Origin: Phytomonospora endophytica
GTDB lineage: Bacteria > Actinomycetota > Actinomycetes > Mycobacteriales > Micromonosporaceae
Direction of reading: 5' to 3'
Assembly (NCBI RefSeq): GCF_014202425.1
Contig: NZ_JACHGT010000004.1
Span: 138,307 to 202,306 of the forward strand
Length of the DNA stretch: 64,000 bases
The notes under the pieces were generated by a model, which worked only from the letters and a program-made list of their open reading frames with translations, made no database searches and was not told the DNA's origin. The translations under genes were made by a program, and so were the position numbers. Shown here one piece after another: positions 38,332 to 41,660 of this stretch (the stretch's first letter is position 1; each line of letters starts with the position of its first letter).

Positions 38332-39534
38332 TCAGCCCGCGAGCCGGAGTTCGAGCTCGCGGAGCAGGTCCTCGACGTCGACGCGCGTCGTCCCCACCGG
38401 CGTCGTCCTCGTCGTGCCGTAAGCCATTTCGACGAGGGCCGAGCGCACCGTCGCCAGCTCCGTCATCGAAGCGCCCACCTCGAACCACGAACCCTGTTCG
38501 GCCGCGACGGCGTCGGTGCGCAGCCGCACGGCGAAGGCCCGGGCGTCCGCGGCGGACAGGCCCGTGCGCGTCGCCCACTCGGCGTCACCGAGATCGCCGA
38601 GCACGATCGCGACGACGTCGGCGAGGAACCCGAACATCGCCGGATCCCCGTCGATGCGCACGCCCGTCGGGCGCAGGCGCAGCGTGGTCCGTTCGATCAC
38701 CGCGACCTCGCGGCCGACGACGTCCTCGCCGAGCCGGAAGCGGATATTCTGCAGACCCCACCCGCGGGCGAGCCGCGACGCCGTCGTCCCGTCGGGGCTC
38801 ACGGCACCGGGGTCGGCACCTGCCAGCAGCAGGACGCCCGCGGCCTTCTTGTGGTCACGCTCGACGGCGTGCATCAACGCCGTACGGCCCATCGCGTCGG
38901 CCGCCTCCACGTCCGCCCCGGCGCCCACGAGGACGTCGAGCGCCGCGTGATCACCCCGCCGCGCGGCCAGGACGATGACGGGCGTGCCGTCGGAACGCCG
39001 CCGGTCCGGGTCGGCGCCGTGCGCGAGCAGCACCCGCAGCACCGCCGGAGCGGCCGACGCCGTGACCGCGACGACCAAGGCCGCCTCCTCGTCGGGCCCG
39101 GACTCGGCGCCCTCGGCGAGCAGGTGGGCCAAGACCTCCAGGCCGCCCGGTGCCGGACGGTGGGTCGGCCGTCCGACCGCTTGGGCCAAGACGCCCGGCT
39201 CCGTCGTGAGCGCGCCCCGCTCCAGCAGCAGGCGGACGACGGCGGGCGCCGACGCCGTCACGGCCGCGCGCAACGGCGAGGCCCCGAAGCCACCGACCCG
39301 CGTGACACTCGCGCCCGCGTCCAGCAGCCGCCGCGCGATGTCGGCCCGGCCCGCGGACGCGGCCGCCACGAGCACCGACCGCCGCCAGCGCGTCACGAGC
39401 ACATCCGGGTCGGCGCCTCCGGCGAGCGCGCCCTCGACGGCCGCGTCGTCGCCATCGGCCACGGCCGCGATCAGCCGCCGGTCGGCGTCACCGCCTTCTC
39501 GCCCGGCACGCTCCGAGCCCGCCTTCTCCGTCAC
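38332..39534 (-). CDS. Ankyrin-repeat protein
   Basis: A 400-aa cytoplasmic protein starting at GTG 39534. TACGGT (39546-39541, minus) ends 6 nt before the start, so the mRNA is probably leaderless; the open frame upstream is antisense to the next gene. Residues about 20-265 hold six or seven ankyrin repeats (RLIAAVADGDDAAVEGALAGGADPD, DIARRLLDAGASV, LRVLLAHGADPDRRRSDG, LDVLVGAGADVEAADAMGRTALMHAVERD). The C-terminal 130 residues, with VAIVLGDLGDAEWATRTGLSAADARAFAVRL, form a separate domain I do not recognise. Ankyrins mediate protein contacts. The partner is unknown. Confidence 0.85.
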   Translation of the reverse strand: MTEKAGSERAGREGGDADRRLIAAVADGDDAAVEGALAGGADPDVLVTRWRRSVLVAAASAGRADIARRLLDAGASVTRVGGFGASPLRAAVTASAPAVVRLLLERGALTTEPGVLAQAVGRPTHRPAPGGLEVLAHLLAEGAESGPDEEAALVVAVTASAAPAVLRVLLAHGADPDRRRSDGTPVIVLAARRGDHAALDVLVGAGADVEAADAMGRTALMHAVERDHKKAAGVLLLAGADPGAVSPDGTTASRLARGWGLQNIRFRLGEDVVGREVAVIERTTLRLRPTGVRIDGDPAMFGFLADVVAIVLGDLGDAEWATRTGLSAADARAFAVRLRTDAVAAEQGSWFEVGASMTELATVRSALVEMAYGTTRTTPVGTTRVDVEDLLRELELRLAG

Positions 39535-39601: not shown

Positions 39602-40332
39602 GTGAACCGACCCGTCGACCTCGCCCGCCTCGGCCCCGTCGCCGTCGGGTTCGCCCTGGTCTTCGCGGCCCTGAGCGTGTGGAGCCCGTGGTGGGCGATC
39701 CCGACCGTCCTGCTCGCCTTCGTCGCGGGACGGCTGCCCGGCCTGGCCCGGGCGACCGTGCTCGTCACCGTCGGTGCGCTCGCCGCGGCCGTGACCGCGC
39801 TGGCGCTCGAACCGGCGTGGATCCCGCACGGCTTCCGCTTCCTCGCGCTGCTGCTCGCCGAGACGATGGTGCCGTGGTTCGCCGGGCGGTTCCTCGCCGA
39901 TGCCGGCCGGGAGGGCGCCCGCCTGCCTGAACGCGCGCCCCTCACGACCCCGCCCCACCTCGCCACCGCAGTGCCCGCCGCCGGATCCGGCTCACCATCG
40001 CCGCCGCCGTCCTCGTCCCCCTGGTCACCTTCGCCGTCGTCGGTGCGGGACTGCGCGGCTGGGAACTGCTGTCGGCGCGCGGCTCGGTCCTCGACGCCGA
40101 GGTCTTCGCGGGCCTGCGCCCAGGCCAGGAACGCGGCGACTTCGCGCACCTTCTGCCCACCACCGAGACACCGGCCCACCCGGAGGCGCCCGAACCACCC
40201 GGCACCGCCTGCGAGTACTACGAGATCACCTCCGACCCCTTCGACGACCGCTCCGGCGACGCCTACCGCCTCTGCTTCGCCGGCACCATCCTGCTGTCCG
40301 CCGACATCGTCTCCGAGGAGCCCGGCGCATGA
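39602..40332 (+). pseudogene. Sensor histidine kinase remnant lacking its catalytic core
   Basis: GTG 39602 (leaderless; TATCGT ends 7 nt upstream) opens a frame coding the N-terminal membrane sensor of a LuxR-partner kinase: four helices ending ETMVPWFAGRFLADAGREGARLPERA. In intact relatives the HisKA_3 and ATPase domains follow. Here the frame decays near 39935-39975, and from about 39931 a different frame encodes the usual C-terminal extension: a helix (RLTIAAAVLVPLVTFAVVGAG) and a region ending PGTACEYYEITSD and DAYRLCFAG, stopping at TGA 40330-40332 in ATGA overlap with the response regulator. About 200 residues, including the phospho-His and ATP site, are missing. An internal deletion with a frameshift is the best explanation. 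Confidence 0.68.
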
Positions 40333-41012
40333 TCCGCGTCCTGATCGCCGACGACGAACCCATGGTCCGCGCCGGGGTGCGCGCGGTCCTGTCTGCCGGC
40401 CACGGCATCGAGATCGTCGCCGAGGCCGCCGACGGCCACACCGCCGTCGAGCTCGCCCGGCGCCACCGGCCCGACGTCGCCGTCCTCGACATCCGCATGC
40501 CCGGCACCGACGGGATCGCCGCCGCCACCGAGATCCGCCGCACCCTCCCGGACACCGGCGTGGTCATGCTGACGACCTTCGGCGAGGACGACTACATCCT
40601 CCGCGCGCTCGGGGCCGGCGCCACCGGCTTCCTGGTCAAGTCCGGCGACCCCGACGAGCTCATCGCCGGGGTCCGTGCGGTCGCCGACGGCGCCGCCTTC
40701 CTGTCACCGAAGGTCGCCGCCAGGGTGGTCGCGCATCTCGCCGCCGGGGGCGACGGGACGCGCGCGACCCGTCGCGCGGACGCCCGCGCGCGGGTCGGCG
40801 CGCTGAGCCCCAGGGAACGGGAGGTGCTGTCGTACCTCGGCGCCGGATGGGCCAACGGCCGCATCGCCCGCCGGCTGGGCGTGGTCGAGGGGACGGTGAA
40901 GTTCCACGTGAGCGCGATCCTGTCGCGTCTCGGCGTGGAGAACCGGGCCGCCGCGGCCGTCGTCGCCCACGAGGCCGGAATCGTCCCGGCGGAACCGCCG
41001 CACGAGCACTGA
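40329..41012 (+). CDS. NarL/LuxR-family response regulator, now probably orphan
   Basis: A 227-aa regulator starting at ATG 40329, overlapping the kinase-remnant stop (ATGA). The receiver has acidic pocket Asp8/Asp9, phospho-acceptor Asp54 (VLDIRMPG), Thr in MLTTFGEDD and Lys in FLVKSGD; the LuxR HTH follows (LSPREREVLSYLGAGWANGRIARRLGVVEGTVKFHV, about 155-190). All key residues are intact, so the regulator may work with another kinase, with acetyl phosphate, or unphosphorylated. Its last 309 nt are overlapped in antisense by the PAP2 frame. Confidence 0.92.
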   Translation: MIRVLIADDEPMVRAGVRAVLSAGHGIEIVAEAADGHTAVELARRHRPDVAVLDIRMPGTDGIAAATEIRRTLPDTGVVMLTTFGEDDYILRALGAGATGFLVKSGDPDELIAGVRAVADGAAFLSPKVAARVVAHLAAGGDGTRATRRADARARVGALSPREREVLSYLGAGWANGRIARRLGVVEGTVKFHVSAILSRLGVENRAAAAVVAHEAGIVPAEPPHEH

Positions 41013-41660
41013 CCCGAACCGCGTCAGCGCCAGATGAGCGGCGACGACGCCACCCGCGCCCAGGACCGCGCCCGCGAGCACGTCGTGCGGGTAGTGCACG
41101 CCGACGACCACGCGCAGCACCGCCACCGCCGCCGCGAGCGGAAGCGCGACGGCCGTCAGCCGCGGCCGCAGGATCATCAGCGCGACCGCGACGCCCATCG
41201 CGACGGTCGCGTGGTTGCTGGGGAAGGACCAGTCGCCCGGTTCGGGACACTCCGCGATCGCCGAGGCGCCCGGCACCGCCCGGCACGGCCGCTCCTCGTC
41301 GACGGCGAGCTTCCAGGCCTCGCTGAGCCCGTAGGCGGCGACGGTCCCGACGCCCGCGACCACGCCCGCCGCCGAGCGGACGTGGTCCCGCCGCCGGACG
41401 GCCGCCAGCCACGTGAACGCCGTCCACAGACCGAGCACGGCGAGACAGGTGAGGGTGAGGATCTCCAGTGCGGTGGCCAGGCCGGCGGGCGGGACGTCGG
41501 ACAGCGCGCGGTACAGCGACGCCGAGGCGCCGTCGGTGACCATCGCGAGTTCGTTCGTGCCGACACCGCCGGGTGACAGCCAGGCGGTGACGGCGACGGC
41601 GACGGCGAGCACGGCGACGGCGCCGAGGCCGCGCGCGAGGTGCGTTCTGAGCTGGTTCAT
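40704..41660 (-). CDS. PAP2-family membrane phosphatase with overlong antisense tail
   Basis: ATG 41660 (MNQLRTHLARG) is the start; TAGCGT (41674-41669, minus) ends 8 nt before it, a leaderless layout. Residues 1-215 give six membrane helices and the three phosphatase motifs: KLAVDEERP, FPSNHA and RVVVGVHYPHD. It should hydrolyse lipid phosphates such as undecaprenyl pyrophosphate or phosphatidic acid on the outer membrane face. The natural end is near residue 220 (HLALTRFGS); the frame then runs 309 nt antisense to the response regulator, giving about 100 Arg/Gly/Asp-rich residues with no domain. A lost stop or small frameshift near 41025-41040 is likely. Confidence 0.82.
   Translation of the reverse strand: MNQLRTHLARGLGAVAVLAVAVAVTAWLSPGGVGTNELAMVTDGASASLYRALSDVPPAGLATALEILTLTCLAVLGLWTAFTWLAAVRRRDHVRSAAGVVAGVGTVAAYGLSEAWKLAVDEERPCRAVPGASAIAECPEPGDWSFPSNHATVAMGVAVALMILRPRLTAVALPLAAAVAVLRVVVGVHYPHDVLAGAVLGAGGVVAAHLALTRFGSVLVRRFRRDDSGLVGDDGRGGPVLHAETRQDRAHVELHRPLDHAQPAGDAAVGPSGAEVRQHLPFPGAQRADPRAGVRATGRARPVAPGGEMRDHPGGDLR

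Follow-up and report, generated by a model that had tools for sequence, protein, structure and literature searches.

A probably recent deletion of the kinase core in an AbsA1-type two-component locus that leaves an intact, candidate orphan response regulator

The window (the whole stretch of DNA analysed, 64,000 nucleotides) contains a broken gene for an AbsA1-type sensor kinase, hosted by a soil-type actinomycete, next to an intact response regulator gene. The most probable reading of this arrangement (probability of approximately 0.62) is an AbsA1-type two-component locus in which a recent deletion of about 0.67 kb has turned the kinase gene into a pseudogene, leaving an orphan regulator that is probably functional. 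The event itself is of an ordinary kind, namely a kinase pseudogene leaving an orphan regulator. It offers a clear snapshot of the birth of such a regulator, as the partner can still be read, a single deletion explains the lesion, and both the regulator and a conserved neighbour remain. The locus consists of the following parts, with frames given as position modulo 3.

39602..39901, + strand: N-terminal sensor remnant (frame 2) of an AbsA1-type histidine kinase, with about four transmembrane helices (profile match, hydropathy)
39893..39972, + strand: junction zone of 80 nt, inside which the frame changes from 2 to 1 (landmark distances, frame-aware alignment)
about 39943-39961..40332, + strand: C-terminal extension remnant, frame 1, with a transmembrane helix and an extracytoplasmic domain, ending at TGA 40330-40332
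40315..40320, + strand: GAGGAG, located 8 nt upstream of the regulator ATG, a candidate ribosome-binding site (sequence)
40329..41012, + strand: intact NarL/LuxR-type response regulator of 227 amino acids (Pfam, identity to orthologues, catalytic residues kept)
41010..41660, - strand: convergent PAP2-family membrane phosphatase, the third gene of the locus (Pfam PAP2, E 1.1e-18; synteny)

A profile of intact kinases matched the kinase remnant at two places only. Profile positions 44-144 were found in the sensor fragment (E 5.7e-18), which runs in frame 2 from GTG 39602 to approximately 39901 (translation MNRPVDLARL...PWFAGRFLAD), and positions 386-512 in the C-terminal fragment (E 6.2e-42), which runs in frame 1 to its TGA. 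Positions 145-385, covering HisKA_3 and HATPase_c, were without a match in the remnant. Similarly, neither HisKA_3 with its phospho-acceptor histidine nor the ATP-binding domain HATPase_c was retrieved by Pfam in either fragment, leaving the gene devoid of both domains of a functional HisKA_3-type sensor kinase. By hydropathy, the sensor fragment has about four helices and the C-terminal fragment one, and the third-position GC signal of frame 2 gave way to that of frame 1 within 39900-39990, at about 39970. The initial annotation, which had described a four-helix sensor and a C-terminal extension of one kinase type, lying in different frames with the core absent between them, was thus confirmed on each of these points. 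The sensor remnant is about 50% identical to intact kinases of Streptomyces and of genera of the same family. Relative to these relatives, the core has been deleted and the frame is broken, and from this comparison the kinase gene is inferred to be a pseudogene.

Orthologues of the regulator, with 72-79% identity, were retrieved from Streptomyces, Nocardia and genera of the same family, the genus of the window organism being represented by one genome in the comparison. In these orthologous loci, a kinase with sensor, HisKA_3, ATPase domain and C-terminal extension in a single frame lies directly upstream of the regulator; Pfam placed HisKA_3 and HATPase_c above cut-off in one example (L033), and the ATPase domain below cut-off in another (L037). 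The 33 loci represent 32 distinct ones, as L045 and L141 apparently stem from the same genome, and 30 of the 32 possess a complete core, the frame staying open all the way from the sensor to the C-terminus, so the possibility raised by the initial annotation, that relatives might lack the kinase domains as well, does not hold. The lesion of the window was absent from all other orthologous loci (33 compared). Independent lesions of other kinds were encountered, consisting of deletions in both kinase and regulator in L110/L190 (a related genome), a kinase frameshift before the histidine domain in L045/L141, and a regulator frameshift near residue 35-40 in L050. A convergent PAP2 phosphatase gene follows the regulator in nearly all close orthologues with enough flank, and this conserved kinase-regulator-PAP2 synteny identifies the window as the same locus and not a paralogue. 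The arrangement occurs in the window (40329-41660 for regulator and phosphatase) and in L030-L046, L050, L072 and L186-L190, from Streptomyces, Nocardia and genera of the same family, and its conservation suggests a functional link. A search of the literature on PAP2-linked systems or BamE-like kinase sensors yielded nothing useful. On the other side of the sensor remnant, a divergent gene for an ankyrin-repeat protein (38335-39534, - strand) starts about 70 bases upstream; no counterpart was found near the orthologous loci. Relocation of the core to another part of the genome was rejected, the best of 54 core matches being 51% identical and part of a paralogous kinase that has a regulator of its own.

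The size of the loss was determined from the distance between FAGRF and the ARRR stretch that precedes helix five, which served as landmarks in 21 orthologues. These landmarks are a median of 753 nt apart in the orthologues (678-843) and 80 nt apart in the window, a distance of 2 modulo 3, which means that about 673 nt are missing and that the frame is broken; the initial annotation had proposed such sizing against orthologous loci. A scan of the junction within 39893-39972 gave ARLPERAP, in the sensor frame, as the best short resemblance. This stretch is as compatible with the segment that precedes the histidine as with the terminal part of the ATPase domain, and about 6% of random stretches drawn from the window score as well. 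Assignment of exact breakpoints, or of a two-step history of in-frame core loss and a later shift, was therefore abandoned. Concerning the age of the event, the identity of each piece, sensor and C-terminal, was regressed on regulator identity across the orthologues, the pairs being non-independent. Both pieces of the window fell on the line of the intact kinases (mean residual z of +0.29 for the sensor and -0.47 for the C-terminal piece), and all five invariant residues of the C-terminal domain, its two cysteines included, are retained. As the fragments diverge no faster than intact kinases and the C-terminal one keeps its invariant residues, the loss looks recent; it is probably lineage-specific too, as judged from these sequence comparisons.

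The regulator itself is intact. Indeed, its receiver domain (Response_reg, E 3e-29) and helix-turn-helix (GerE, E 5.2e-16) were recognised by Pfam, and D8, D9, D54, T82 and K104 are all retained, as is characteristic of NarL/LuxR-type regulators and in agreement with the initial annotation of an intact Asp54 and LuxR helix-turn-helix. It carries seven unusual changes vs eight and seven in two other isolated lineages with intact loci; L174W, S175A and A192F are three changes in or near the helix-turn-helix. With regard to translation, the ATGA overlap between kinase and regulator, which the initial annotation had considered preserved, is indeed present in the DNA, but its translational significance is weakened. 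The kinase C-terminal frame that ends in it contains no ATG, GTG or TTG, which also excludes separate translation of the C-terminal domain, and it is not the frame of the sensor. The frame opened at 39602 meets no stop until 41326, crossing the regulator in the wrong frame, so that ribosomes from the sensor would pass on to that position and coupling has probably been lost. The overlap is not invariant either, as the kinase of close orthologues often stops 8-53 nt upstream. A frame-0 open reading frame from ATG 39900, which would fuse the regulator to upstream sequence, was discarded as a high-GC artefact, since the regulator's own ATG matches that of the orthologues. This reading frame (39900-41012) could mislead automatic annotation into a false N-terminal extension of 143 residues. 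A simple scan, a weak approach in high-GC actinomycetes, recognised no promoter or terminator. A strong second promoter of absA2 lies within absA1 in S. coelicolor (PMC6457490), which makes a promoter inside the kinase remnant plausible here.

The state of the regulator bears on a rather unlikely alternative, according to which the whole two-component system is decaying, the kinase having gone first and the regulator, no longer expressed or useful, being untouched because the event is recent. If the loss is recent, an intact regulator is no proof of its continued use; the probable break in translational coupling, with the sensor frame crossing the regulator to 41326, is consistent with such decay, as are the deletions in both genes of L110/L190 and the single frame lesions of L045 and L050. 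The residues and identity of the regulator, however, equal those of intact loci, and it has a GAGGAG site of its own. An assembly or sequencing error hiding an intact kinase in the true genome is improbable. In its favour, the fragments show no sign of relaxed constraint and the lesion is single and unusual within a draft of 35 contigs, but in the same assembly all 54 kinase-core matches are in open frames that no internal stop interrupts, and the junction is matched elsewhere in the genome only twice, by short and weak stretches. In particular, misassembly driven by a repeat was rejected, as the genome contains no long copy of the junction that could have misled the assembler, and short reads do not usually produce an error in which about 670 bases disappear and no gap is left.

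It is very doubtful that the outer modules have been kept on purpose, in the sense that a core-less receptor made of the helices and the BamE-like domain would be produced and the regulator would now work independently of phosphorylation. Hardly credible, too, is the general form of this idea, a core-less membrane protein of four helices and C-terminal domain, which ribosomal frameshifting, for example, might produce and which would serve as decoy, receptor or scaffold. The two outer modules have remained well preserved and show a coding-like third-position GC, and the resemblance of ARLPERAP to the end of the ATPase domain makes an in-frame loss of the core followed by a separate shift conceivable. 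Against this stand the near-chance level of that resemblance (about 6%), which suits the segment before the histidine just as well, the absence of an obvious slippery site, and the absence of any such protein from the relatives (33 orthologous loci). Moreover, a recent loss already explains the preservation of the modules.

The preferred reading, a probably recent deletion in an AbsA1-type locus, would start from an ordinary AbsA1-type kinase gene, adjoined by genes for a NarL-type regulator and, in convergent orientation, a PAP2 phosphatase. Loss of about 0.67 kb would have cost the kinase its histidine and ATP-binding domains and shifted the frame, yielding the pseudogene. Synthesis of the regulator probably continues, with the GAGGAG as ribosome-binding site and perhaps from a promoter within the kinase remnant. 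Deprived of its cognate kinase/phosphatase, it may act unphosphorylated; alternatively, it could receive phosphate from acetyl phosphate or from a paralogous kinase, for example that at G000:C6. Both roles offered by the initial annotation, a functional orphan or a phosphorylation-independent regulator, are compatible with this reading.

The nearest known system is AbsA1/AbsA2 of Streptomyces coelicolor (SCO3225/3226), with its homologues AbrA1/A2, SCO3638/39 and SCO3640/41. In AbsA1, four helices are located at the N-terminus and a fifth close to the C-terminus, and the C-terminal domain is extracellular (PMC9739842, PMC3881020). The intact orthologues of the window kinase share this order of four helices, core, fifth helix and extracellular C-terminal domain, the comparison with AbsA1 covering architecture. 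The layout of four plus one helices and an extracytoplasmic C-terminus flanking the core is thus represented by both ends in the window and is found whole in the orthologues. As in AbsA1/AbsA2, a LuxR/NarL-type regulator is adjacent, whereas the window locus differs in its deleted core, its broken frame and the PAP2 phosphatase alongside. In the AbsA system, it is in its phosphorylated form that the regulator represses (PMC6457490); by analogy, loss of the kinase would relieve repression. Further, 18 orphan response regulators without an adjacent kinase have been listed in S. coelicolor (PMC9739842). The regulator of the window resembles these in being intact and without a usable adjacent kinase. 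Unlike them, it is still accompanied by the remains of its former partner, which makes the origin of the orphan visible.

The C-terminal domain of the kinase, in which one transmembrane helix precedes an extracytoplasmic part with two invariant cysteines, is a more interesting by-product than the pseudogene itself, given its predicted BamE/BLIP-like fold. No Pfam or NCBIfam model was found for this domain. A comparison with the BamE family (Pfam PF04355) returned 0 families for the window copy and a best E of 0.095 in 2 of 34 relatives, short of the curated cut-off. The structure was predicted with a pLDDT of 91.8, with helices at residues 46-50 and 58-64 and strands at 83-88, 101-107 and 110-117. 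The top 33 Foldseek matches of the model were all BamE or beta-lactamase inhibitory protein (BLIP) (best E 7.3e-3, probability 0.99), and VIA gave a Z of about 6 for the same resemblance. The predicted structure therefore has the alpha-alpha-beta-beta-beta order of BamE and BLIP, a resemblance of fold and not of function. In contrast with these proteins, the domain of the window is joined to a histidine kinase via a transmembrane helix and has no sequence family match above cut-off. AbsA1-type kinases possess in it an unnamed, widespread extracytoplasmic domain that is a candidate sensing module. Within the family, 168 out of 355 genomes gave matches to this domain. In one further genome (G692; L168, 1714-3196), a remnant of the same domain type adjoins a transposase-like gene, representing another decayed kinase.
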